From Halomicrobium zhouii (lineage in GTDB: Archaea > Halobacteriota > Halobacteria > Halobacteriales > Haloarculaceae), in the NCBI RefSeq assembly GCF_900114435.1, contig NZ_FOZK01000001.1, forward strand, positions 744,001 through 808,000: a stretch of 64,000 bases of DNA. Direction: 5' to 3'. Shown here one piece after another: positions 14,815-45,159 of the stretch (position 1 is its first letter; each line of letters opens with the position of its first letter). The notes beneath the pieces are model-generated. The model had not been told where the DNA came from. It saw only the letters and a list, made by a program, of their open reading frames with translations, and did no database searches. A program made the position numbers and the translations under genes.

Positions 14815-15072
14815 GGCCGGAGTTTCGAGACTGCGGGCCTAATGGTTTGTCGTTGGCGACGCTAGCCAGTTTTGCCAGTCGGATTCACGTGAACCAGCCG
14901 GGCCGATGAGACGCAATGGTGTACCGGGTGTTCCGCTCCGAAGAATTCCCGATCAGTAGCGAGCGCGTTCCACAGAAAACTGGACGAACGGGCGGATTAG
15001 CCACCGTCTAGCGTTCTCGCGAACGGTAGTAGGGACACAACGTTGAAAGTGCCTCCCGCAGTCTACTGGTGT

Positions 15073-16266
15073 ATGAGCGTTCGAACGGCCGTCGTCCTCG
15101 CGGCAGGCGAGGGGACCAGGTTGCGTCCGATGACGCGCAACCGCCCCAAGCCGATGTTGCCGGCGGCGAACCGCCCTATCCTCGAGTACGTCTTCGACGC
15201 GCTGATCGACGCCGGTATCAGCCGAATCGTCGCCGTCGTCGGCTACAAGCGCGACCGCGTCAAGGACTACTTCGGTCCCACGTACCGCGACGTCCCGATC
15301 TCCTACGTCACCCAGGCAAAACAGCTCGGTAGCGGCCACGCCCTCCTCCAGGCCCGCTCCGTCGTCGACGGGCCCGTCCTCGTCGTCAACGGCGACCGCC
15401 TCATCGACGGCGCGACCGTCGCCTCCGTCGTCGACCACTTCGAGGAGGACCAGGACACGCCCGCGCTCGCGGTGATCGAGCGCGCCGACGCACAGCGCTA
15501 CGGCGCGGTCGACCTGCGGGACGGCGACCTCGTCTCCATCGTCGAGAAACCCGACTCCAATCAGTACAGACTGATCAACGGGGGGATCTACGCCTTCCCG
15601 GAGAGTATCTTCGGCGCCATCGACGAGACGCCGCGTTCGGACGGTGAACTCGCCCTGACCGACACCATCGCCCGGCTCATCGAGCGCGGCCGCGTCCGGG
15701 CGATCATGACCGACGGAATGTGGGTCGACGCGACCTACCCGTGGGACCTGCTCGCCGTCGCGCGCGAGGTGCTCGCCCGCGGGCGCGTCGTCGAAGACGA
15801 ACGGGCCGACGGCGTCTGGGTCGACGACTCCGCGACGGTCCACGAGGACGCCACCCTCCAGGGCCCCGTCGTCGTCGGCCCCGATTGCGAGGTCGGCCCC
15901 AACGCCGTCGTCGGATCGAACACCGCGCTGGGCGACAACGTGACCGTCGGCGCGAACGCGACGATACGGAACTCGGTGCTCGACGTGGACGCGCGCGTCG
16001 ACGCGGGCTCGACCATCATCGACGCCGTCGTCGGCCAGGACACCACGCTGGGCGCGAACACCACCATCCCTGGTGGCCCCGCGGACGTCCAGGTCGGTAC
16101 CGACGTCTACGAGGACCAGCGCCTCGGCGCCGTCCTCGCCGACCGCGTGCGGGCCCGTGGCAACGTCTCGCTGTCGCCCGGCACGCTCGTCGGCCCGAAG
16201 GCGACGCTCCACTCCGGCGTGCACGCCTACGGCCACGTCGGCGAGGGCGTGGAGGTGGTGCGATAA
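15073..16266 (+). CDS. glmU: Bifunctional sugar-1-phosphate nucleotidylyltransferase/acetyltransferase (GlmU-like)
   Basis: This 397-residue protein has an N-terminal nucleotidyltransferase domain. Its signature is LAAGEGTRLRPMTRNRPKPMLP at residues about 8-29 (long loop G-x-G-T-R-x-x-P...K). The C-terminal half is a left-handed beta-helix with hexapeptides (VHEDATLQGPVVVGPDCEVGPNAVVG...). Archaeal GlmU-type enzymes acetylate GlcN-1-P and couple it to UTP, giving UDP-GlcNAc. Start at ATG 15073 (MSVRTAVVLAAGEG). The stop TAA overlaps the ATG of the glmS gene by one base, so the two are translationally coupled and likely share the amino-sugar pathway. The exact sugar is inferred from that neighbour. 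Confidence 0.9.
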   Translation: MSVRTAVVLAAGEGTRLRPMTRNRPKPMLPAANRPILEYVFDALIDAGISRIVAVVGYKRDRVKDYFGPTYRDVPISYVTQAKQLGSGHALLQARSVVDGPVLVVNGDRLIDGATVASVVDHFEEDQDTPALAVIERADAQRYGAVDLRDGDLVSIVEKPDSNQYRLINGGIYAFPESIFGAIDETPRSDGELALTDTIARLIERGRVRAIMTDGMWVDATYPWDLLAVAREVLARGRVVEDERADGVWVDDSATVHEDATLQGPVVVGPDCEVGPNAVVGSNTALGDNVTVGANATIRNSVLDVDARVDAGSTIIDAVVGQDTTLGANTTIPGGPADVQVGTDVYEDQRLGAVLADRVRARGNVSLSPGTLVGPKATLHSGVHAYGHVGEGVEVVR

Positions 16267-18056
16267 TGTGCGGGATCATCGGCTGTGCCGGCCGCGGCGA
16301 GGACACGCTGGACACGCTCGTCCACGGTCTCTCGAAGCTGGAGTACCGGGGCTACGACTCGGCCGGCGTCGCGCTGGCCGACGAGAGCCTCGACGTGCGC
16401 AAGTGCGCTGGCGAGATCGAGGACCTGCGCGAGCACCTCTCCGGCATGACCGTCGAGGGCACCGTCGGGATGGGTCACACCCGCTGGAGCACGCACGGCC
16501 CGCCGACCGACGAGAACGCCCACCCCCACCAGGACTGCACCGGGAACGTGGCCGTCGTCCACAACGGCATCATCGAGAACTACCAGTCCCTGCGCGACGA
16601 GCTCGTCGCCGCGGGCCACACCTTCCACTCCGACACGGACACGGAGGTCGTCCCCCACCTCGTCGAAGACGCGCTGAACGACGGGCTGGACCCCGAGGCC
16701 GCCTTCCGACAGGCCGTGGGGCAACTCGAGGGGAGCTACGCCGTCGCGCTGACCGTCGCCGGCACCGAGTCGGTGTTCGTCGCGCGCAACGACTCTCCGC
16801 TCGTGCTCGGTCTCGGTGACGACGCGACCTTCTTCGCCAGCGACGTCCCCGCGTTCCGTGATTTCACCGACCAGGTCGTCTACCTCGACGACGGCGAGTA
16901 CGCCCGCATCAGTCCCGAGGGCTGGGAAGTCTCCGACGTCGACGGCACCGTCGTCGAGAAGGAGGTCGACACCGTCTCCTGGGACCCCGAGGAGACGGGC
17001 AAGAGCGGCTACGACCACTACATGCTCAAGGAGATTCACGAGCAACCCCGCGCGCTCCGCCAGTGCCTGCGCGGGCGCGTCGACGAACTCTCCGCCTCCG
17101 TCGACATCGGCGACCTCGGGGATCTGTCGCCCACGGGCATCCAGTTCGTCGCCTGCGGGACGAGCTACCACGCCGCCTTCTACGCCGCACAGCTGTTCCA
17201 GTCCGCGGGCATCCCCGCCCAGGCGTTCCTCGCGTCGGAGTACGCCACCAGCCCGCCGCCCATCGGCGACGCGCTCGTCGTCGGCGTCACCCAGAGCGGC
17301 GAGACCGCCGACACCCTCTCCGCGCTCCGCGAGGCGCGCCACCGCGGCGCGCGCACGCTCGCGGTCACCAACGTCGTCGGCTCGACCGCGGCCCGCGAGT
17401 GCGACCACGCGCTGTACATCCGCGCCGGCCCCGAGATCGGCGTCGCCGCCTCGAAGACGTTCTCCAGCCAGCTCGGCGCGCTCAACCTGCTCGCACTGGC
17501 GACGACGCGCTCCGACGAGGCCCGGGACATCATCGCCGCGCTGCGCGACCTCCCCGGCCAGGTCCAGGAACTCATCGACGACTCCGACGCGAAGGAAGTC
17601 GCCGAGCACTACCAGGACGCCAAGTCGTACTTCTTCATCGGCCGGGGTCACATGCACCCGGTCGCCCTCGAGGGCGCGCTGAAGATGAAGGAGATCACCT
17701 ACAAACACGCCGAGGGCTTCGCCGCCGGCGAACTGAAACACGGCACCCTCGCGCTGGTCACCGAGGACACGCCCGTCTTCGCCACGACCGTCGGCGACGG
17801 CGAGCAGGCGACCAAGACCGTCGGCAACGTCAAGGAGGTCGAGGCTCGCGACGCGCCCGTCGTCGCCGTCACCGACGGCCAGTCCGACATCGAACGGTAC
17901 GCCGACCACGTCCTCACCATCCCGGAGACACACCCGCGGGCCGCCGCGGTGCTCGCGAACGTCCAGCTCCAGCTTGCGGCCTACCACACCGCGAACTTCC
18001 TGGGGCGCTCCATCGACAAGCCGCGGAACCTGGCCAAGAGCGTCACCGTGGAGTAA
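16266..18056 (+). CDS. glmS: Glutamine-fructose-6-phosphate aminotransferase (isomerizing)
   Basis: GlmS makes glucosamine-6-phosphate from fructose-6-P and glutamine, the first step to UDP-GlcNAc. The 596-residue protein opens MCGIIGCAG with the N-terminal Cys nucleophile. It continues with the class-II glutaminase features YRGYDSAG and GHTRWSTHG. Two SIS domains follow (CGTSYHAAFYA, SQSGET-like TQSGETADT, and the second at about 440-560). It ends in KPRNLAKSVTVE, the conserved C-tail needed for synthase activity. It forms an operon with the glmU-like gene (TAATG overlap). Confidence 0.96.
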   Translation: MCGIIGCAGRGEDTLDTLVHGLSKLEYRGYDSAGVALADESLDVRKCAGEIEDLREHLSGMTVEGTVGMGHTRWSTHGPPTDENAHPHQDCTGNVAVVHNGIIENYQSLRDELVAAGHTFHSDTDTEVVPHLVEDALNDGLDPEAAFRQAVGQLEGSYAVALTVAGTESVFVARNDSPLVLGLGDDATFFASDVPAFRDFTDQVVYLDDGEYARISPEGWEVSDVDGTVVEKEVDTVSWDPEETGKSGYDHYMLKEIHEQPRALRQCLRGRVDELSASVDIGDLGDLSPTGIQFVACGTSYHAAFYAAQLFQSAGIPAQAFLASEYATSPPPIGDALVVGVTQSGETADTLSALREARHRGARTLAVTNVVGSTAARECDHALYIRAGPEIGVAASKTFSSQLGALNLLALATTRSDEARDIIAALRDLPGQVQELIDDSDAKEVAEHYQDAKSYFFIGRGHMHPVALEGALKMKEITYKHAEGFAAGELKHGTLALVTEDTPVFATTVGDGEQATKTVGNVKEVEARDAPVVAVTDGQSDIERYADHVLTIPETHPRAAAVLANVQLQLAAYHTANFLGRSIDKPRNLAKSVTVE

Positions 18057-31547: not shown

Positions 31548-32242
31548 GGCAGTGTTCAGATTAGGATTGAAAGGTGAGGCGCGGCAATTTCGAAGTGTTC
31601 ATGCCCGAAACCACCGGCCTCACTGGATTATCGGCCGGATCGACTTGGACTTTGTGGAGCGAGAAGCAACACCGGAGCTGTTGATGAAGCTCAGTATTCA
31701 GCTACATTTGGCAGGATATCACTTTCGAATACTGTTTCGTTTCTTGATGTATTCGGTGTTGATCGCGCACGTTCAACCGTTCATAACTGGGTTCACAAAA
31801 CCGATCTACAGCCAGCGGAGGGTCAGAGTACGGATCTCGTCGCGGTTGATGAGACGGTGATCCGACTCAACGACGAACAGTATTGGCTATATGTTGCGGT
31901 CGACCCCAATACGAATGAATTACTCCATACGAAGCTCGAACCGACGAGAACGAACGTTATCGCGTACACGTTCTTCGCCGAACTTCACGAGGGACACGAT
32001 GTCGAAGAGGCGACGTTCCTTGTTGATGGAGCGTCACCACTCCAAAATGCGTGCGCTCGACAGGGCCTCGATTTTAGATACGAACGCAGTGGAGATCGGA
32101 ACAGTGTCGAACGTGTCTTCCAAGAGATAAAACGACGAACGTCATCTTTCTCGAACTGTTTCAGTCACGCCGCCGCAACAACCGCCGACGAGTGGCTCCG
32201 AGCGTTCGCCTTCGCATGGAACCGGCTTATTTGAACACCGCC
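31548..32242 (+). mobile_element. IS6-family insertion sequence with inverted ends
   Basis: Terminal repeats GGCAGTGTTCAGA (31548-31560) and, inverted, TTTGAACACCGCC (about 32230-32242) match at most positions and enclose the transposase pseudogene. The flanking 8-mers differ (GTGAGCGC left, GACGGCGT right), so there is no target duplication. With the truncated sulfatase gene on its right side, this suggests an IS-driven deletion. Confidence 0.65.
31601..32234 (+). pseudogene. IS6-family transposase with two frameshifts
   Basis: Starting MPETTGLTG, the frame changes near 31635 to RIDLDFVEREATPELLMKL and again near 31717, where a missing T separates LHLAG from SLSNTVSFLDVFGVDRARSTVHNW. It then reads on to the end: VAVDETVIRLNDEQYWLYVAV, TFLVDGAS and SVERVFQEIKRRTSSFSNCFSH. 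The DDE residues are present but split over frames. A C-terminal piece of a related transposase lies at 41273-41490. Confidence 0.85.
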
Positions 32243-33637: not shown

Positions 33638-33964
33638 ACCCCGAAGGACTCGCCGGAGGCTAATCAACGCAACTATTCCCCGTAGCTCTCTCAAAGAGGC
33701 AGCTACCCACTCCGGCGCGATCGTGTGTTCTGACAGCCTCGTCTGGGGCGTATCCCGACCGAAGCGCGGTAGCCGTCTCAGACCTGTTCCTGAATCCGTT
33801 TGGATGCCTGAAAGCAACGAGTTGGGTACACAGTCCGCGGCTGCTGTCGTCTGGTCAGACGCATCCGCCGAATGACACCCTACTGACTGGTCCGAGTACT
33901 GTCGATATCTCTGAATCGATGGAAGGTTACTTCACACCTGAACGACGAAGGCCACTCAGAGAGA
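33638..33964. other. Divergent intergenic region, GT2 / aminotransferase
   Basis: These 327 bp separate two divergent genes. Open frames extend through part of it but give no domain-like protein. Taken as regulatory sequence and 5' flank. Confidence 0.35.
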
Positions 33965-35074
33965 ATGGTAGATCACGTTCCGTTTACAGATATCCACATG
34001 GATCAAGAGACCGTCGACGACGTGGCTGACGTCCTGGAGAGCGGACGTTACGTGAAAGGGCCCGTCCTAGAGCAGTTCGAGAGTGAGTTTGCGGCGGCCT
34101 CCGAGGTCGACCACGCAGTCGGCGTCTCGAACGGGACTGCCGCGCTTTTACTTGCGATGAAAGCGATCGGGGTCGGATCGGGCGACGAAGTGCTCGCGCC
34201 GGCACACACCTATTTCGCTACTGTTTCACCCGTTCTCGAACTCGGTGCGACGCCTCGCTTCGTCGACATCGATCCCGACCGGTACACGATGGACCCGGCC
34301 CTGCTGCGAGAGGCGATCCAGGCAGCGGAGGACCCCGCTACAATCGTCGTCACGCACATGCACGGACAGCCGGCCGATATGGATCCCATCACCGACGTCG
34401 CAGCCGAGTACGACCTTCCCGTCGTGGAAGACGCCGCGCAGGCCCACCTCGCGGAGTACGACGGTGAGATGGTCGGTAGTATCGGTGACGTCGGGTGCTT
34501 CTCGTTCTATCCGACGAAGAACATGACCGTCGGCGGCGACGGCGGCATGATCACCACTGACGACCCGGCGATCGCAGACGAGGCGCGTGCGCTCCGGAAC
34601 CACGGCCGGAACGAGAAGGGCGAGCACGTCGTCCTCGGACTCAACTACCGGCTCGACGAGATCAAGGCCGCGGTCGGGCGCCACCAGCTCGACGCGCTGC
34701 CGGACTGGTCGGCAGGACGTCAGCGGGCCGCTTCAGCGTACGACGAGCGATTGATGGACGTCGACTGGGTCGTCACACCGACGACGTACGGGAACGCCGA
34801 GCACGTTTATCATCACTATCCCGTCCAGGTCCCAGCCGACAAACGGTCGGCGTTCCGCGCCCATCTGGACGATTACGGCGTCGACACTGGTATTCACTAC
34901 GAACGGGCAGTCCACGAGCAGCCTGCCGTCCGCGACCGCGTCGGTTTGGTTGACGTACCCGTTGCCGAAGAGTATTGTCGCCGGACCGTCTCGCTGCCGA
35001 TGCATCCGCGGCTCTCGACGGAGGAAATCGATCACGTAGTCGACGCGATCGAATCGTTCGAGGTGGACGCGTGA
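33965..35074 (+). CDS. DegT/DnrJ/EryC1-type sugar aminotransferase (WbpE-like)
   Basis: This PLP enzyme of 369 residues aminates a keto nucleotide sugar. It shows the entry motif VSNGTAALLLAM, VVEDAAQAHLAEYDG, and the PLP lysine in FYPTKNMTVGGDGGM (about residues 182-197). The C-terminus has GIHYERAVHEQPA and LPMHPRLSTEEI. It overlaps the next gene (Gfo/Idh/MocA oxidoreductase) by 4 bp. The oxidoreductase and the acyltransferase at 36126 make a WbpB/WbpE/WbpD-like set. The likely substrate is then a 3-keto UDP-GlcNAc uronate, aminated at C3. Confidence 0.92.
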   Translation: MVDHVPFTDIHMDQETVDDVADVLESGRYVKGPVLEQFESEFAAASEVDHAVGVSNGTAALLLAMKAIGVGSGDEVLAPAHTYFATVSPVLELGATPRFVDIDPDRYTMDPALLREAIQAAEDPATIVVTHMHGQPADMDPITDVAAEYDLPVVEDAAQAHLAEYDGEMVGSIGDVGCFSFYPTKNMTVGGDGGMITTDDPAIADEARALRNHGRNEKGEHVVLGLNYRLDEIKAAVGRHQLDALPDWSAGRQRAASAYDERLMDVDWVVTPTTYGNAEHVYHHYPVQVPADKRSAFRAHLDDYGVDTGIHYERAVHEQPAVRDRVGLVDVPVAEEYCRRTVSLPMHPRLSTEEIDHVVDAIESFEVDA

Positions 35075-36057
35075 CGACACACGCAGTAATCGGGACCGGG
35101 TACTGGGGATCGAACCACGTCCGCGTGGCGTCGGAACTCGAGGAGGCCGGTGTCCTCGACGACGTCGTCCTGTGCGACATTGACGAGACGAGAGTGCGGG
35201 ACCTCGCGGCAGATTACGGGTTGGAATCCGTCACTGACTACGCCCAGCTCGAAGAACTCGGGGTCGATACGGCCGTGATCGCGACGCCGTCGACGACCCA
35301 CAGAGAGATCGCTACCACGCTTCTGGAATCCGGTATCGATTGCCTCGTCGAGAAGCCCCTCGCCCTGTCGAGCGACGACGCGTGGGACATCGTCAATACC
35401 GCTTCAGAGAACGGCCGGACCCTCGGCGTCGGGCACATCTTCAGGTACCATCCGGCACTCCGAGAGCTCGAACGCCGGATCGGCCGCGGTGAACTCGGAC
35501 AGATCAAGTACCTGACGACCACCCGATCGACCTTCCGGGCGCCGAGAGCGACGACCGGCGCGCTGTACTCACTCGCCGTCCACGACGTCGACATCTACAA
35601 CATGTTGCTCGAGGGGACGCCCGACCACCTCTTCTGCCGGCTCGACCGGCACGTCAGGGACGACATCAACGAAACGGCTACGCTCGTTCTGGGGTACGGA
35701 GACGTCACCGGCGTCATCAACGAATCCTGGCAGATCCCGGTCTTCGGGAAGCGACGCGACCTCGTCGTCGTCGGATCCGAGCGCACTGCACACCTCGATT
35801 ACCTGGCCGACACCGAACTGACGATCCACGACGCCAGCGTCGTCCGAGAGGGCGATGCCCTGCGGGCACAGGACGAGGGTTCGACGACTTATGAGGTGAA
35901 CGGATACGAGCCCCTCAAGCAGGAAATCGAGGACTTCCTGACGGCGTCTCACGAGGGACTCGATCCGCTCGCCAACGGCGAAATCGGAGCGAAGACCGTC
36001 GAACTCTTAGAGCGTGCGGAGGAGTCCGCGGAACGGAACGAGACGATCGAACTGTAA
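35071..36057 (+). CDS. Gfo/Idh/MocA-family nucleotide-sugar dehydrogenase (WbpB-like)
   Basis: This 328-residue oxidoreductase starts at GTG 35071, overlapping the aminotransferase TGA by 4 bp (GTGA). The N-terminal Rossmann motif is VIGTGYWGSNHVRV. It has the family signature CLVEKPLAL (catalytic EKP Lys) and a catalytic-region His in LAVHDVDIYN. It likely oxidises the C3 hydroxyl of UDP-GlcNAcA so that the neighbouring aminotransferase can act. The two are translationally coupled. This assignment comes from the trio; the fold alone would allow many substrates. Confidence 0.9.
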   Translation: MTTHAVIGTGYWGSNHVRVASELEEAGVLDDVVLCDIDETRVRDLAADYGLESVTDYAQLEELGVDTAVIATPSTTHREIATTLLESGIDCLVEKPLALSSDDAWDIVNTASENGRTLGVGHIFRYHPALRELERRIGRGELGQIKYLTTTRSTFRAPRATTGALYSLAVHDVDIYNMLLEGTPDHLFCRLDRHVRDDINETATLVLGYGDVTGVINESWQIPVFGKRRDLVVVGSERTAHLDYLADTELTIHDASVVREGDALRAQDEGSTTYEVNGYEPLKQEIEDFLTASHEGLDPLANGEIGAKTVELLERAEESAERNETIEL

Positions 36058-36125
36058 CAATCGTCAATCTAGACATCATTTACAAGCACAGAGACGGGCT
36101 TCTCGGATTTCAGGCGGCAGAACGA

Positions 36126-36662
36126 TCAATGGGACGCCGCTCCCGCGTCCTGATAGCTGATTACCTCTGCTGGATTTCCGGCTACAATTGCATTCGGTGG
36201 TACGTCGTCGACGACCACAGCACCGGCACCGACGATCGCGTTTTCCCCGACTTCGACCGGCAGTAGGGTCGCATTCGTACCGATAGACGCGCCTTCTCGC
36301 ACGATAGTTTCTTCCCACTCGTCTGCGTCTCCGCTTGGGGGATACCTGTCGTTTACGAACTTCGCCCCGTGACTCACAAAGACGTCGTCTTCGATCGTCA
36401 CACGTGAGCATATGAACGCGTGAGACTGAATCCGGCACCGATCCCCAACCGTTACACCGTCCTGAATTTCTACGTTCGAGCCCGCCATGCATTCGTCGCC
36501 AAGTTCGCACCCGTAGAGGTTCACGAACCGCCATATCTTGCAGTCTTCTCCTATTTCACAACCATCTAGAATCGTGAAATCCGACACTTCTGTCCCCTCG
36601 CCGATATCGCAATCGCTGATTATCGCTGATTGTCGCGCGTGCCAATTGCCCATCGTGGACAC
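36126..36662 (-). CDS. Left-handed beta-helix N-acetyltransferase (WbpD/WlbB-like)
   Basis: This 178-residue protein (or 175 from the in-frame ATG at 36653) consists of hexapeptide repeats such as GEGTEVSDFTILDGCEIGEDCKI. The block VEIQDGVTVGDRCRIQSHAFICSRVTIEDDVFVSHGAKFVNDRYPP is typical of WbpD/WlbB enzymes that acetylate the 3-amino group of UDP-GlcNAc3N-uronate. The active-site His lies in the HAFICS/SHGAKF region. Convergent with the dehydrogenase gene, so on its own transcript. Confidence 0.9.
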   Translation of the reverse strand: MSTMGNWHARQSAIISDCDIGEGTEVSDFTILDGCEIGEDCKIWRFVNLYGCELGDECMAGSNVEIQDGVTVGDRCRIQSHAFICSRVTIEDDVFVSHGAKFVNDRYPPSGDADEWEETIVREGASIGTNATLLPVEVGENAIVGAGAVVVDDVPPNAIVAGNPAEVISYQDAGAASH

Positions 36663-37077
36663 TGTTATCCGTGCATCGCATTAATGGTTCGTTCATGTAC
36701 GATATAGCTGTGAATCGAATTAGCACAGACTCTACCGAGAGTGACGATGGAGAGACGGCTGCGCCAGCCGAACTGTTGATGCTGTCAGAGCGGCTCTTGG
36801 TGTCGTATCGTCTACGCGTAGCCGTCGCTGATCACCGTCATGCAATACTCTAACCGGAGGATGGGAGGTGACGTGGTAACCGCAAGACCGCTTGGCCGAC
36901 GCCGAGCGAACGATGCAGGACGCCGATGGCTTCCGAGCGCGCTGCCCGGCGAGCACAGGGCCAGGGATCGATGACCTGCGAAGGCGAAGGATACGGCACC
37001 TTCAGCAGAGGGGGTTGAGGACTTACGGACTGCAGCACGAAACGAGACGTTAGAGCTTTCCTGACGTCGTCCCGGGG
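36663..37077. other. Region without a clear gene
   Basis: This 415 bp lies between the acetyltransferase start and the formyltransferase pseudogene. Frames on the minus strand (for example through LEYCMTVISDGYA near 36820) look like fragments of a degraded gene, but I cannot name it. Confidence 0.3.
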
Positions 37078-37851
37078 TCAGTCGAACCGCTGGTGTCCCT
37101 GCTTTGTCAGGTAGATCTTCTCGCCGTTCAAATCGGTCCAGGCGGGTTCGTGTGGCGGGAAGTCCAGCGCGCGAATCCTGTCGTAGAGGTCCGTTCCCCA
37201 TTCTCGATCGGCCAGGGCCTCGGGCGGGATCTCCTTTAATCCGTCTAGGCTCTCTTTCGTGTAGAAGTACCGCTCGCCGTCGAACTCCTCCTGCGGCGTT
37301 CTACGTTCGTGGACGGTCCCGTCGACGATGTTCGGCAGTTGTCCTCGAACAGCGATATCGACTCCGAGCAGACCTTATCGTAGAGCGTCCGCGCGGTGTC
37401 GTCCTCGCTGATCTCCGCGAACCGTCGCGCGACGACGCCGACGGCGTCAACTTCCGGTGCCATGAAGTGCAGCGTCGTTCCGTGCTTCCAGTGGTTGTCG
37501 TCCCGCGCGTGCATGATCGCGTGACTGAACACGTTACTCCCAGTACCGGGGGAGTTCCGCCTGGTGAAAATTGAGAGCGCCCTCTGTGGGGTGGGCGAGC
37601 AGTTCCTCGCCCAGGATATTGGGGTAGTATACGGACAGGAACCAGTCGAACTCGTAGTCGAACAGGGATTACTCCTCGTCGATCGTCAGGACATCATGCT
37701 CAAGAGAGCTCGTCCATTGAACCGTCCCACCAGTGATCGTCGTCTTGCGGGTACGTGACTATACGGGGATGTCGAGATCTGGGTGGTCTTCGAGTCGATG
37801 GAGGCAGGCCTCTCCCAGGGAGTGACTACCGAGAAATGCAATGGCAGTCAT
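37078..37851 (-). pseudogene. Sugar N-formyltransferase, multiply broken
   Basis: Pieces read across frames rebuild a formyltransferase of about 255 codons. They are MTAIAFLGSHSLGEACLHRL (from ATG 37851), DDDHWWDGSMDEL, DYEFDWFLSVYYPNILGEELLAHP, GALNFHQAELPRY, and FSHAIMHARDDNHWKHGTT. The end is LDFPPHEPAWTDLNGEKIYLTKQGHQRFD. Lesions include a TAG at codon 31 (37759-37761), a TAA at 37669-37671, a shift near 37545 and one near 37335. The family (Met-tRNA formyltransferase fold) includes enzymes that formylate amino-deoxy sugars. Its place in the glycan island suggests loss of an N-formyl sugar. Confidence 0.85.
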
Positions 37852-38204
37852 GCCATATATCTGGAAGAGGACGTACTAAAGCTTGATTCATCACCTTTCG
37901 GTCGAACGATCAAATTGCCCATGGAGCCCTTTATGTCGATAAAGTCTTCATTGCAGTCGATTGTTCCCGGTTTTAGAAGTAGACGCGAGTACATTCAATC
38001 CTACCCGGTTGCACTCGACAATCATCACTTGTTCGTCTGTACAACAGTGACGATCAGACACGGATCCTCACCTGTAAAGCAGGACGGTACCATCGACGCG
38101 ACCAATCCGCTGGTCGAAAAACACCTCGACGGGAAAGATGGTGACGGTTCCATATCAAGTACGAGTACGAGTAGACGAGGATCAGGTGGACCGCTCGAGT
38201 TCTA
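37852..38204. other. Intergenic region next to the formyltransferase pseudogene
   Basis: A 141-codon open frame on the plus strand spans this stretch and the pseudogene start. It has no domain features and partly overlaps the pseudogene, so I do not call it a gene. The rest is AT-richer spacer sequence. Confidence 0.35.
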
Positions 38205-39506
38205 CTAGACGAATCCGCCCTCTCCGTACGCAAACGTCCTAAGATCGCCGTTCTCTATGTCCTCGTAATCCTCCTCTGCGAAGACAACTTCCAGTTCGTT
38301 CACGTGGTTCCGGACTATTTGTGGGTTATTGATTCCGACACCGTCGTCACTGCTACGGAACTGCTCGATTAGCGACCACTCACTCCCGTCGTACTCCAAT
38401 CGCTGTAATTTGCCACTCCGTCGGCCTCTATCCGAACACGTGACGTACGCCTTGATATCCGAGGCAGTCGACACGATCTCCTCATGTGAGTTGTATTTGT
38501 GGCCGACCGACGTGATTGTCTGCGGGGTTCTCCAAGACGACCCGTCCCACTTCGTCCACTTCAGAACCCACCCTTCACTCGGGTCATTATGCTTGAAAAA
38601 CAGGTATAGAGCCCCCTTCCGGTCGAACTTACATCGAACCGTGGAACACTGAGACTCGCCGGAATCGAACACTTTGCAGACTGCCTCTGCCTCATCTGCC
38701 GAAACCCGTGAACCGATATCCGTCCCGTCGGCCGCTCTCAGGTTGCCGGTAGCGGGATTCAGACGAGCATGGTATACGTTCAACCGCTTGCCCGTCTCGT
38801 GATCGTGTGCGACCCAGCCAAGATGGATCTCGTCACCGCGGGTGGCGATCCCGCCCGTGTAAACAGTCCATCCCTCACCGTGGTCTATGATCACCTCCCC
38901 GCCCTGCCAGTTTTCACCGTTGTCTTTGGACCGATAGTGGGTTTCGACGTTGTAGGGGCCGCCTTCGTTCCGGCGCATAAAAAGGTGGAGCCGTCCATCA
39001 ACAACCACCGGCTTTGGATAGGTGAATCCGCCCTCGAAGGATGCCCGGTGCTCCCAGGCCGTGATATCGTCCGGGGACTTCGACCTGGAGTACAGTTGGT
39101 TCGACCCGTGACTGCCGTAGAAGACATGAATATACCCATCCTGATCACGGACGAGAGAGGGACCACCGTGATAGTCTGCTTCTGCGGGATGGTCTCTGAT
39201 CTTTACGGATGATCCCCAACTCTTGTCCTTGTGGCTGTATTCACAGATGTACGAAGCAATCCCCTTGCCTTGCCAGACGACGTAGGTTGAGTGAGTAGTG
39301 TCGACGTACAACCCCTGCGGTTGGATGATGTCGTAGAAAGGCATTCCCGCGCCGTTCGCGGCGAAATATTTGCCCTCGATAATATCGTAATCGCGTCCCT
39401 GTCGGTCCGTTCTCGTTTCTGATCCACTCTCACTGCGGCCCCCGAGACAGCCAGCGAGGAACGCTACTGCCGGAAGAGACAGAAATTCACGCCGAAGACG
39501 ATTCAC
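38205..39506 (-). CDS. Secreted lipoprotein with BNR-type beta-propeller (BNR_4-like)
   Basis: This is a 433-residue protein from GTG 39506. VNRLRREFLSLPAVAFLAGC joins a Tat-like RR motif to the lipobox LAGC, so it is exported and lipid-anchored. An ATG 33 bp upstream would add MILFVVIEVRG. The mature part is a propeller resembling BNR_4 proteins: MPFYDIIQPQGLYVDTTHSTYVVWQGKG, DYHGGPSLVRDQDGYIHVFYGSHGS, and YRSKDNGENWQGG (Asp-box-like SxDxGxxW). Relatives act in polysaccharide binding or cleavage. In this locus it may bind or process the surface glycan. Catalytic residues cannot be assigned. Confidence 0.8.
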   Translation of the reverse strand: MNRLRREFLSLPAVAFLAGCLGGRSESGSETRTDRQGRDYDIIEGKYFAANGAGMPFYDIIQPQGLYVDTTHSTYVVWQGKGIASYICEYSHKDKSWGSSVKIRDHPAEADYHGGPSLVRDQDGYIHVFYGSHGSNQLYSRSKSPDDITAWEHRASFEGGFTYPKPVVVDGRLHLFMRRNEGGPYNVETHYRSKDNGENWQGGEVIIDHGEGWTVYTGGIATRGDEIHLGWVAHDHETGKRLNVYHARLNPATGNLRAADGTDIGSRVSADEAEAVCKVFDSGESQCSTVRCKFDRKGALYLFFKHNDPSEGWVLKWTKWDGSSWRTPQTITSVGHKYNSHEEIVSTASDIKAYVTCSDRGRRSGKLQRLEYDGSEWSLIEQFRSSDDGVGINNPQIVRNHVNELEVVFAEEDYEDIENGDLRTFAYGEGGFV

Positions 39507-41272: not shown

Positions 41273-41490
41273 ATAAGTTAGTGGCATTGTGCCAGCGAAC
41301 GAAGGTTTGAAGCCATGATTCGGCGGTTTCTGGTTCGACTTGACTGAAGCAATTCGAGAACAACGAGGTTCGACGCTTCAGTTCTCAAAAGATTCGTTCG
41401 ACAGCGTTCGATTTCTGTGGCGAGACATCTGAAATCGGAGCCCAGGACGTTGCAGTGCAGTTTGGAGCACATGAGCGTCGTCAGCGACAA
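41273..41490 (-). pseudogene. C-terminal remnant of an IS6-family transposase
   Basis: On the minus strand the fragments DDAHVLQTALQRPGLRF and NAVERIF-stop-ELKRRTSLFSNCFSQVEPETAESWLQTFVRWHNA match the end of the transposase seen at 31601-32234. The in-frame TGA replaces an Arg codon. It is fused in frame to the start region of the downstream membrane-protein gene. Confidence 0.8.
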
Positions 41491-41782: not shown

Positions 41783-41806
41783 ATGCGAGGAGGAGAAGAA
41801 ACACGT

Positions 41807-43069
41807 GTGACATCCGAAAAGGCCATCGACGCGATCCGTCCTCTGGTCGAGGAACACTTCGAAAGGAAAGACGACGACTTCGTGCCGGGAGAGAGTACGA
41901 TACAGCTCAGTCGGCCGACGTTCGGGCCCGACGAGGTGACTGAGGCCGTCGAATCGCTCCTCTCGACGTTCGTCACGATGGGCGAGAAAGTCGATCAGTT
42001 CGAAGAGAAGTGGTCGGACTACGTCGATACCCGGTACTCCCACATGGTGAATTCAGGGTCGTCAGCGAACCTGTTAGCACTGAAGGCACTGCAGGGAGAC
42101 GTGATCGAACCGGGTGACGAGGTCATCGTTCCGGCCGTCGCGTGGTCGACGAGTCTGTTCCCCATCGTTGACATCGGAGCGGCACCAGTCCTCGTCGACA
42201 TCGACCCGGAGACGTACACCATCGATCCAGAGGCCTTCGAGAATGCGATCTCCGACAGGACTGAGGCCGTGGTACTTGTCCACCTGCTCGGGAACCCGTG
42301 CGATCTGGACTCTATCGTCGATATCTGCGACGCTCACGACATTACCATCGTCGAGGACTGCTGTGAGGCACACGGTGCCAGATACGACGGGCAAGACGTC
42401 GGGACGTTCGGGGACGTCGGCACCTACAGCTTCTTCTTCTCCCATCACATCTCGACGATTGAGGGCGGGATGGTAATCACGGACGACGAGACGATCAGCG
42501 AACGAGTCCGAATGGCGCGAGCTCACGGCTGGATCCGCGAACTCGACGATACCGAAGACGTGACCGAGGCGCACCCCGACATCGATCCCCGGTTCCTCTT
42601 TGCGAGCCATGGCTACAACCTCCGGCCGACCGAGATTCAAGGCGCGTTCGGTATCCACCAGGTCGACAAACTGGACCAGTTCGTGAAGCAGCGGCGTCAG
42701 AACGCCGCGGAGATCACGAGCAGGCTCTCCGAATACGACGACGTATTCAGGTTCTTCGAAGAGGACGAACGTGCGTACTGTTCCTGGTTCGCGTATCCCT
42801 TCCAGGTCCGGGAAAGCGCACCGTTCTCACGCGACGATTTCCAGCGCTACCTCGAGGAGAACAACATCGAAACGCGGCCGATCCTAGCCGGGAACCTCGC
42901 ACGCCAACCGATCCTCGAAGAAATCGACCATCGGGTATCGGGTGCTCTAAGTGGAGCACAGCAGATTCACGACACAGGGCTGTTCATCGGCAATCACCAC
43001 CGGCTCGACGACGAGATGATCGACTACATCGTATCAATCGTCGAGGAATATGTCGAGTCACAAACTTGA
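41807..43069 (+). CDS. ColD-like 3-dehydratase (PLP fold with His in place of Lys)
   Basis: This 420-residue protein belongs to the DegT/ColD fold. Where aminotransferases have the PLP lysine it reads YSFFFSHHISTIEGGM, with His (codon 42446-42448) aligned to Lys. This is the hallmark of GDP-4-keto-6-deoxymannose 3-dehydratase (ColD), which removes the C3 hydroxyl. Other ColD-like motifs are VPAVAWSTSLFP, HLLGNPCDLDSI, VRMARAHGWIRE, GYNLRPTEIQGAFGI and the end GLFIGNHH. GTG 41807 was chosen since GAGGAGGAG precedes it and a TATA-like box sits about 28 bp before; ATG 41783 is the alternative. The next two genes encode a GFS/ColC-like and a GMD enzyme. Confidence 0.85.
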   Translation: MTSEKAIDAIRPLVEEHFERKDDDFVPGESTIQLSRPTFGPDEVTEAVESLLSTFVTMGEKVDQFEEKWSDYVDTRYSHMVNSGSSANLLALKALQGDVIEPGDEVIVPAVAWSTSLFPIVDIGAAPVLVDIDPETYTIDPEAFENAISDRTEAVVLVHLLGNPCDLDSIVDICDAHDITIVEDCCEAHGARYDGQDVGTFGDVGTYSFFFSHHISTIEGGMVITDDETISERVRMARAHGWIRELDDTEDVTEAHPDIDPRFLFASHGYNLRPTEIQGAFGIHQVDKLDQFVKQRRQNAAEITSRLSEYDDVFRFFEEDERAYCSWFAYPFQVRESAPFSRDDFQRYLEENNIETRPILAGNLARQPILEEIDHRVSGALSGAQQIHDTGLFIGNHHRLDDEMIDYIVSIVEEYVESQT

Positions 43070-43107
43070 ACCAGTATCCATATAGGTAGCGATACGAACG
43101 AGCGTTC

Positions 43108-44055
43108 ATGGACCTTCAGGGAAAACGAATCGTCGTCACGGGCGGTGCTGGGTTCCTCGGCTCCCACGTCGTCGAAGAGTTGGAGTCGCGTGGGTACTCT
43201 CACATCACGGTCCCGAGAAGCGATCAGTACGACCTGCGTGACCCCGACGACATCCAGTCTCTGTTCGACGACGAGAGCCCGGACGTCGTGATCCACCTCG
43301 CTGGCACAGTCGGTGGAATCGGCGTGATGGACGAAAAGCCGGGTGAGATATTCTACGATAACGCTATTATGGGTATCGAGCTGCTCGAGGCTGCGCGGCG
43401 GGCAGACGTCGAGAAGTTCGTTTCGATCGGGTCGGTGTGTGCGTACCCGAAACACACCTCGGTCCCGTTCGACGAGGAGTCGCTGTGGGACGGATACCCG
43501 GAAGAGACGCACGCGCCGTACGGGATCGCGAAGAAACTCCCGCTCGTACAGAGCCAGGCTTACCGACAGCAGTACGGGTTCGACGGGATCTATCTGCTAC
43601 CCGTCAATCTGTACGGTCCCAGAGACGATTTCGACCCCGAGACGTCGCACGTCATTCCCTCGATCATCCGGAAAGTAGACGAGGCGATGCGTCGCGGCAA
43701 CGATACGATCACGGCCTGGGGAACCGGTGAACCCACCCGTGAGTTCCTCTACGTGGAGGACGCCGCCGAGGCTATCGTCGAGGCGACGATATCATACGAC
43801 GAACCTTTACCGATGAATCTCGGGTCCAGCGAAGAGATTTCGATCCGGGAACTGGTGAACATGATCATTGACACGATGGGATTCGACGGGGAGATCGTCT
43901 GGGACAGGTCGAAACCTGACGGACAACCGCGTCGGTGTCTCGACGTCTCCCGTGCGAGAGAGCACCTGAATTGGGAAGCGGCGACGGAATTCGACGATGG
44001 CCTTTCGGAAACGATCGAGTGGTATCGTGACAACAGGATCGACCTGATTGAGTAA
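43108..44055 (+). CDS. GDP-L-fucose synthase/ColC-like epimerase-reductase
   Basis: This 315-residue SDR has VVTGGAGFLGSHVVEEL and the GFS hallmark LAGTVGGIGVMDEKPGEIFYDNAIMG. Catalytic residues are SVCAYPK (the Cys used in C3/C5 epimerisation), YGIAKK (Tyr/Lys) and DPETSHVIP (the second epimerase acid, His). GFS and ColC act on GDP-4-keto-6-deoxy sugars, inverting C5 and reducing C4. Beside a ColD-like enzyme the likely product is GDP-colitose; without ColD action it would be GDP-L-fucose. A TATA-like CCATATAGG lies about 25 bp before ATG 43108. Confidence 0.87.
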   Translation: MDLQGKRIVVTGGAGFLGSHVVEELESRGYSHITVPRSDQYDLRDPDDIQSLFDDESPDVVIHLAGTVGGIGVMDEKPGEIFYDNAIMGIELLEAARRADVEKFVSIGSVCAYPKHTSVPFDEESLWDGYPEETHAPYGIAKKLPLVQSQAYRQQYGFDGIYLLPVNLYGPRDDFDPETSHVIPSIIRKVDEAMRRGNDTITAWGTGEPTREFLYVEDAAEAIVEATISYDEPLPMNLGSSEEISIRELVNMIIDTMGFDGEIVWDRSKPDGQPRRCLDVSRAREHLNWEAATEFDDGLSETIEWYRDNRIDLIE

Positions 44056-44097
44056 CGCAAAACGATTTAACTGAGGGAAACTGCGTAGGCATATCAC

Positions 44098-45159
44098 ATG
44101 TCTAAGAGAGCACTCATAACTGGCGTCACCGGACAGGACGGTTCTTATCTGGCAGAGATTCTACTAGATAAGGGATACGAAGTCCACGGAACCATTCGAC
44201 GCGGATCTACGTTCAACACACAGCGTATCGACCATATCTTTCAGGATCCCCACGACGACCAGATCCCGTTTCATACGCACTACGGTGAGATGACCGATGC
44301 GAGCAATATCAGTCGATTGATCGAGGATATCGAGCCTGACGAAATCTACAATCTCGCCGCACAGAGCAACGTCGCAGTTTCGTTTGACCAGCCCCAGTAC
44401 ACTACGGACACCAACGCTCTCGGGACACTTCGAGTTCTGGATGCGATCCGTGAATCCAGAATCGATACTCGGTTCTATCACGCTTCTACCAGCGAACTCT
44501 ACGGCGGTCAAACGAGTGAGCCGTTGAACGAACAGTCTCCGTTCCGGCCGCGTAGCCCGTACGCCTGTTCGAAACTGTACGCCCACTGGATCACTATCAA
44601 CTACCGGCAGTCGTACGGCCTCCACGCTAGCAACGGGATCTGCTTCAATCACGAATCGCCTCGACGCGGGAAGCGATTCGTGACGCGAAAGATTACCCGC
44701 GCTGTTGCGAAGATCAACGCCGGCTACCAGGACAAACTGTATCTTGGCAACCTCGACGCGAAGCGCGACTGGGGATACGCTCCCGAGTATGTCGAAGGGA
44801 TGTGGCAGATCGTGAATCAGGATGATCCGGACGATTACGTCCTCGCCACGGGCGAGACGAATACCGTCCGCGAGTTCGCGACGAAGGCCTTCGAGGTGAT
44901 TGGAATTGACATCACGTGGGAAGGCGATGGCGTCGACGAACGGGGGATCGACAGTTCAACGGGCGAGAAGCTGGTCGAAGTCGATCCCCGGTACTTCAGG
45001 CCCAACGAGGTCGACACTCTCATCGGCGATCCGACCAGGGCAGAGACCGAACTCGGCTGGAAAGCCGAAACGTCGCTCGACGGGCTGGTCGAACGGATGG
45101 TCCAGAACGACGTCGACAAGGTTGAAACCGAGGGTGAAGTCGGTCTAGACTATCTGTGA
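44098..45159 (+). CDS. gmd: GDP-mannose 4,6-dehydratase
   Basis: GMD converts GDP-D-mannose to GDP-4-keto-6-deoxy-D-mannose with bound NADP. The 353-residue SDR shows [56 protein letters not shown] (catalytic Ser/Thr and Glu), [10 protein letters not shown] (Tyr, Lys) and [38 protein letters not shown] lies near the C-terminus. This is the common entry to fucose, perosamine, rhamnose and colitose. It is the third gene of the ColD-GFS-GMD row, all on one strand with gaps of about 40 bp. Confidence 0.95.

Follow-up and report, generated by a model that had tools for sequence, protein, structure and literature searches.

The question raised by this locus is which sugar is made by an aminotransferase, a dehydrogenase and an acetyltransferase that lie side by side in a haloarchaeal genome of 4.25 Mb in 6 contigs (G000). 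The surface glycans of haloarchaea differ strongly among close relatives, and few genes for their unusual sugars are known. A sequence-only reading of the window, by which we mean the whole 64-kb stretch that was analysed (contig C1, 744001-808000), had taken the three genes for the set that makes UDP-GlcNAc3NAcA. On the evidence presented here, the trio probably makes a 3-acetylamino sugar for the surface coat, and the explanation that we moderately favour is that it represents the N-acetyl form of a 3-amino-sugar module of haloarchaea, in which an acetyl cassette has replaced a formyl one. The module constitutes a defined, testable 3-amino-sugar unit, set apart from a likelier GlcNAc3NAcA operon.

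The reading frames of the trio are all intact. Its arrangement had been described as a DegT aminotransferase and a Gfo/Idh/MocA dehydrogenase with a 4-bp overlap next to a convergent hexapeptide acetyltransferase, and the coordinates and Pfam matches agree with that description. The trio and the two genes proposed to feed it are as follows.

33965-35074, plus strand: AT_b, a DegT/DnrJ/EryC1/StrS sugar aminotransferase (369 aa; PF01041, 392.8 bits)
35071-36057, plus strand: Gfo_b, a GnnA-like Gfo/Idh/MocA dehydrogenase (328 aa; PF01408 and C-terminal domains)
36126-36662, minus strand: AcT_b, a left-handed beta-helix N-acetyltransferase, WbpD/WlbB/WxcM-like (178 aa; PF00132 hexapeptide repeats)
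15043-16263, plus strand: glmU (Arch_glmU, 318 bits; cut-off 292)
16263-18053, plus strand: glmS (glmS model, 722 bits; cut-off 418; the pair is given as 15043-18056)

The PLP lysine of AT_b is found within SFYPTKNMT, and the closest solved chains of this protein are 7b0d, DesV (2oga), QdtB (3frk) and WbpE (3nyu). Gfo_b most likely starts with the GTG at 35071, which overlaps the AT_b stop codon (35072-35074) in the 4-bp sequence GTGA. The acetyltransferase, convergent to Gfo_b, is closest by sequence to the WxcM-like 4mzu (109 bits), WlbB (3mqg, 92 bits) and 7s43 (90 bits); its beta-helix repeats and nearest relatives, which acetylate 3-amino nucleotide sugars, place it as a predicted WbpD/WlbB/WxcM-type enzyme. 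The reaction class proposed earlier, in which a carbon of a nucleotide sugar is oxidised, aminated and N-acetylated, is retained, and the WbpD/WlbB-type acetyltransferase fits these matches. The same holds for the proposal that the glmS and glmU genes at 15-18 kb are the source of UDP-GlcNAc, which is supported by scores above both curated cut-offs.

The WbpA-WbpB-WbpE-WbpD pathway leads to UDP-GlcNAc3NAcA in Pseudomonas aeruginosa, Bordetella and Thermus (PMC10622841). Like the genes of that pathway, those of the trio cluster a Gfo/Idh 3-dehydrogenase, a DegT aminotransferase and a hexapeptide N-acetyltransferase, the last of which is near WlbB. Unlike them, the cluster is without a 6-dehydrogenase, its third gene swaps with a formyltransferase in relatives, and its dehydrogenase is nearer to GnnA, whose substrate is UDP-GlcNAc, than to WlbA, whose substrate is UDP-GlcNAcA. 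A profile built from 25 Gfo_b sequences gave GnnA (7bvj) as the top match with 129.5 bits, compared with 79.5 and 77.5 bits for the WlbA enzymes, and by this sequence affinity Gfo_b does not group with the WlbA/WbpB-type dehydrogenases that act on UDP-GlcNAcA. An AlphaFold2 model of Gfo_b (pLDDT 92.7) gave TM values to GnnA of 0.82-0.89; in a fold search with this model GnnA was among the top matches, though not the first, and was not singled out from other Gfo/Idh enzymes. The affinity of Gfo_b favours UDP-GlcNAc over UDP-GlcNAcA as its putative substrate, and because the enzyme resembles GnnA more than WlbA, neutral UDP-GlcNAc3NAc is the more likely putative product of the trio, rather than UDP-GlcNAc3NAcA.

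The best NCBIfam model for the window Gfo_b is NF040723, the archaeal UDP-GlcNAc 3-dehydrogenase, which also matches all 25 Gfo_b members. The window pair thus resembles GnnA-GnnB, which converts UDP-GlcNAc to UDP-GlcNAc3N for Acidithiobacillus lipid A, and NF040723, both in being a dehydrogenase-aminotransferase pair and in the best profile and family matches of Gfo_b. It differs from them in having an adjoining acyltransferase and in that Gfo_b scores below the equivalog cut-off (194 against 450 bits). Since Gfo_b is far under that cut-off and shares about 28% identity with the GnnA-like Gfo_a, its substrate may differ from UDP-GlcNAc. The pair could instead act on UDP-Glc, UDP-Gal or UDP-GlcA, which have no 2-acetamido group, and give a 3-acylamido-3-deoxyhexose such as Glc3NAc. 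The divergence of Gfo_b from GnnA would suit such a sugar, as would a GalE-like epimerase that adjoins AT_b in L089, L157 and contig C4 of G000 and adjoins Gfo_b in L091. However, the UDP-GlcNAc 3-dehydrogenase is the best family model by a wide margin (194 versus 88 bits), and we regard this alternative as rather improbable. An AglF-type UTP-glucose-1-phosphate uridylyltransferase, for UDP-glucose synthesis, is also encoded near most AcT-type loci and possibly hints at UDP-glucose, but AglF is common to most haloarchaeal glycan clusters and is therefore weak evidence for a sugar of the Glc3NAc type.

In the route that we favour, Gfo_b would oxidise a UDP-sugar at C3, the substrate most likely being UDP-GlcNAc supplied by GlmS and GlmU, and AT_b would aminate the 3-keto product with glutamate as the donor. 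AcT_b would then N-acetylate the new amine to give UDP-2,3-diacetamido-2,3-dideoxy-glucose (UDP-GlcNAc3NAc), which could afterwards undergo C6 oxidation, and nearby glycosyltransferases would move the sugar into a surface glycan. A route through a dTDP-4-keto-6-deoxy sugar was rejected, as the b loci examined showed no recognisable set of 4,6-dehydratase and 3,4-ketoisomerase, and a Gfo/Idh enzyme takes the place of that chemistry.

The sequence-only reading had noted that the UDP-GlcNAc 6-dehydrogenase is not in the window, and indeed no UGD-family gene was found within these 64 kb. It had named the rest of the genome as the place to search for this enzyme, and there three full-length UGD-family genes are present, namely that of AglM and two others whose substrates are putative.

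Contig C1, about 560.7-562.0 kb: TviB-like UGD-family gene
Contig C4, inside operon 'a': WecC/WbpA-like UGD-family gene

With one of these two encoding the missing 6-dehydrogenase, the trio might still make UDP-GlcNAc3NAcA from UDP-GlcNAcA, which we consider unlikely. Besides the two non-AglM genes, the kinship of AcT_b with WlbB, WbpD and WxcM speaks for this possibility, and so does locus L091, where a UGD-family gene heads an apparent operon with AT_b and Gfo_b, which in that lineage speaks for a uronic acid as the product. GlcNAc3NAcA is, moreover, a known haloarchaeal sugar, making up three of the four residues in the exopolysaccharide repeat of Haloferax denitrificans (PMC3191746), a species outside the operon loci compared here. 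Against it are the greater nearness of Gfo_b to GnnA, the finding of no UGD-family gene close to either the window trio or its relative in L072, and the existence of a complete, separate candidate operon that is widespread and found in G000 too, so that the trio would be redundant for that sugar.

In this operon, on contig C4, AT_a, Gfo_a and the UGD-family 6-dehydrogenase form one overlapping run (L010, 8945-12399), and the matching acetyltransferase, 62% identical to the L081 gene, lies about 21 kb off (L037, 14047-14547). The complete order AcT_a-AT_a-Gfo_a-UGD is found in Halohasta litorea, Halomicrococcus, Halobacterium bonnevillei, Halopiger, Haloferax mucosum, Natrialba sp., Halegenticoccus and Halolamina. 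The trio has the same three enzyme classes, to which set 'a' adds the 6-dehydrogenase; set 'a' differs in being paralogous and widespread, in its QdtC-like acetyltransferase, and in that no formyl version of it was seen. Among 292 genomes of the haloarchaeal class, Gfo_a is present in 193 and its rarer paralogue Gfo_b in 24, and the association between the window pair and the GlcNAc3NAcA-type operon is not significant (18/24 versus 175/268). The aminotransferase was dropped as a discriminator between the sets, as AT_a and AT_b retrieve mostly identical references. An additional Gfo/Idh enzyme on C4 was likewise rejected as a true WbpB, WlbA being missing from its matches at E <= 1e-10. The equivalog models nearest to the C4 6-dehydrogenase are UDP-ManNAc enzymes. 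However, a UDP-GlcNAc 2-epimerase (PF02350) is absent from the genome in searches whose controls were positive, so the C4 enzyme probably does not serve UDP-ManNAc, and that route was rejected. Operon 'a' appears to be a better candidate than the window trio for GlcNAc3NAcA. Given this separate four-activity operon, the dehydrogenase scores and a third position that is exchangeable with a formyltransferase, we do not uphold the assignment of the trio to UDP-GlcNAc3NAcA.

This exchangeable position became apparent when the neighbours of Gfo_b were clustered, which revealed a formyltransferase (FT) at loci without AcT_b. The enzyme has the Fmt fold (PF00551, Formyl_trans_N, 75 bits) and is unrelated to AcT_b; in the alignment, the intact FTs keep the catalytic Asn-x-His and Asp in N-x-HQAELPRYRG and VDAGD-like motifs and are predicted to be sugar N-formyltransferases. 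Across 27 loci, AcT is present at 8 and FT at 17, neither at 2, and two intact enzymes at none. FT occurs in 20 of the 292 genomes, 17 of which also have Gfo_b (p = 3e-19, relatedness ignored). At seven loci at least (L073, L074, L077, L084, L086, L092 and L095) it directly follows Gfo_b in convergent orientation, in the slot of AcT, and at others it lies 0.5-6 kb away. At least three changes of acyl state are required on the Gfo_b tree, one of them nested in a supported clade (L074 amid AcT loci, support 99/94). These observations belong to the explanation that we favour, with the same moderate confidence, in which AT_b-Gfo_b is a constant core and the third gene an exchangeable acyl slot. 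Since the window-type pair accompanies either an acetyltransferase or a formyltransferase, the product in relatives need not be a diacetamido sugar.

The acetyl/formyl alternation could also be a coincidence of neighbourhood in glycan islands, with a third enzyme whose substrate is something other than the AT_b product. Such an explanation, which we find very hard to credit, could accommodate the FTs at 4-6 kb from the pair in L079, L089 and L091 and the FTs without Gfo_b in G015, G018 and G100. Against it, each of the 23 genomes that carry the AT_b-Gfo_b pair also carries AcT or FT, slot and orientation are identical at many loci, and the trio moves as one block. The exclusivity holds per locus and not per genome: G214 has a b locus with AcT plus an intact, unlinked FT elsewhere (L213, contig C2) with no recognisable b pair beside it, and contig C4 of G000 carries a second copy of the pair (L010, 16561-18713; L037, 831-1640), its Gfo 62% identical, together with an intact FT. 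G000 thus holds both acyl versions, and the set on C4 is nearly identical in G281. Formyl-type loci (L086, 1278-3248, and 7 more) repeatedly encode a large protein, of about 600-657 aa, that has a weak match to a methyltransferase domain.

The linkage of AcT_b to Gfo_b is beyond chance. AcT_b is present in 8 of the 292 genomes and is adjacent and convergent to Gfo_b in all 8 (Fisher p = 6e-10 at the genome level, a statistic that ignores relatedness). One of the relatives, G290, belongs to another family and shares the following segment with the window.

33914-36732, no strand assigned: shared block of AT_b, Gfo_b and AcT_b with both upstream regions (87.7% DNA identity to G290 contig C3, L072, over 2821 bp)

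The block holds these three genes alone, and outside it no similarity between the window and G290 was detectable on either side, apart from the Gfo 3' relic described below. As the 2821-bp block ends just outside the trio, the trio appears to travel as a single cassette. The segment of 9 kb that holds the trio is flanked by a 110-nt inverted pair of 70% identity (32099-32208 and 41300-41409), both members of which lie within transposase-like remnants, with an IS240-type DDE at 31857-32231.

Next to AcT_b are the remains of two further genes. The earlier inventory of the locus was right as to the trio and overlooked the first of them, a decayed formyltransferase.

37090-37851, minus strand: psi-FT, a full-length formyltransferase pseudogene (4 frameshifts, 1 in-frame stop)
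36893-37058, plus strand: remnant of the 3' end of a second Gfo_b (the Gfo relic), between AcT_b and psi-FT and pointing at psi-FT

The pseudogene matches the L086 formyltransferase in tblastn (E 4e-61); in an alignment that spans the frameshifts, 163 of 255 residues are identical. It was recovered by the genome searches as well, listed with internal stops. In DNA, the Gfo relic matches 35804-35945 with 72% identity (E 1e-12) and the Gfo_b of L072 with 71.5% (E 9e-14), and its final 26 nt are 77% identical to 36028-36053. Its support is at the DNA level, the protein-level search being not significant and no better than shuffles. At formyl-type loci the typical arrangement has the 3' end of Gfo pointing towards a formyltransferase, and an acetyl-type cassette appears to have displaced a formyl-type one in the window. 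We infer as the simplest history that the acetyl-type cassette entered a formyl-type locus by insertion or by recombination and that the older genes then decayed, so that formyltransferase and dehydrogenase 3' end would persist as wrecks of the displaced cassette. No trace of a formyltransferase was found in G290.

Pairs of N-acetyl and N-formyl sugars are familiar from bacteria, e.g., Qui4NAc/Qui4NFo, the N-acetyl and N-formyl forms of perosamine, and Fuc3NAc/Fuc3NFo. As in the module described here, one amino sugar is served by two alternative acyltransferases. However, the bacterial sugars are 6-deoxy sugars made by 4,6-dehydratase chemistry, whereas the window has an archaeal Gfo/Idh route and a replacement kept as a pseudogene. 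An N-formylated sugar is present in a haloarchaeal N-glycan (PMC6137143), and in the literature searched we found no report of an archaeal Gfo/Idh-based module or of an acyl-slot replacement caught as a pseudogene. The fossil illustrates how a chemical group of a surface sugar may be exchanged via cassette replacement. More tentatively, the constant core may have its acyl cassette exchanged among haloarchaea, so that a surface sugar would change from N-acetyl to N-formyl or back in a serotype-like manner, perhaps under pressure from viruses; the window would then be a recent switch, with the formyl version kept on another replicon. A possible bacterial counterpart is seen in an Omnitrophota MAG (L118, 7-3150), where AT_b, AcT_b and Gfo_b have relatives (43, 41 and 31%) that adjoin a Gfo_a relative.

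At 41783-45159 the window also contains an apparent gene set for a 3,6-dideoxyhexose of the GDP-colitose type, here in an archaeon. It consists of a ColD/RfbH-like DegT protein with His replacing the PLP lysine (SFFFSHHISTIEGG), followed by a GDP-fucose-synthase-like gene and then GMD (533 bits, over the cut-off). A stretch of 56 nt at 38090-38145, within the ORF 37783-38208, matches the beginning of the ColD-like gene (41823-41878) with 79% identity and is probably what remains of a second copy. A similar GDP-colitose-type set adjoins the b pair of L074.
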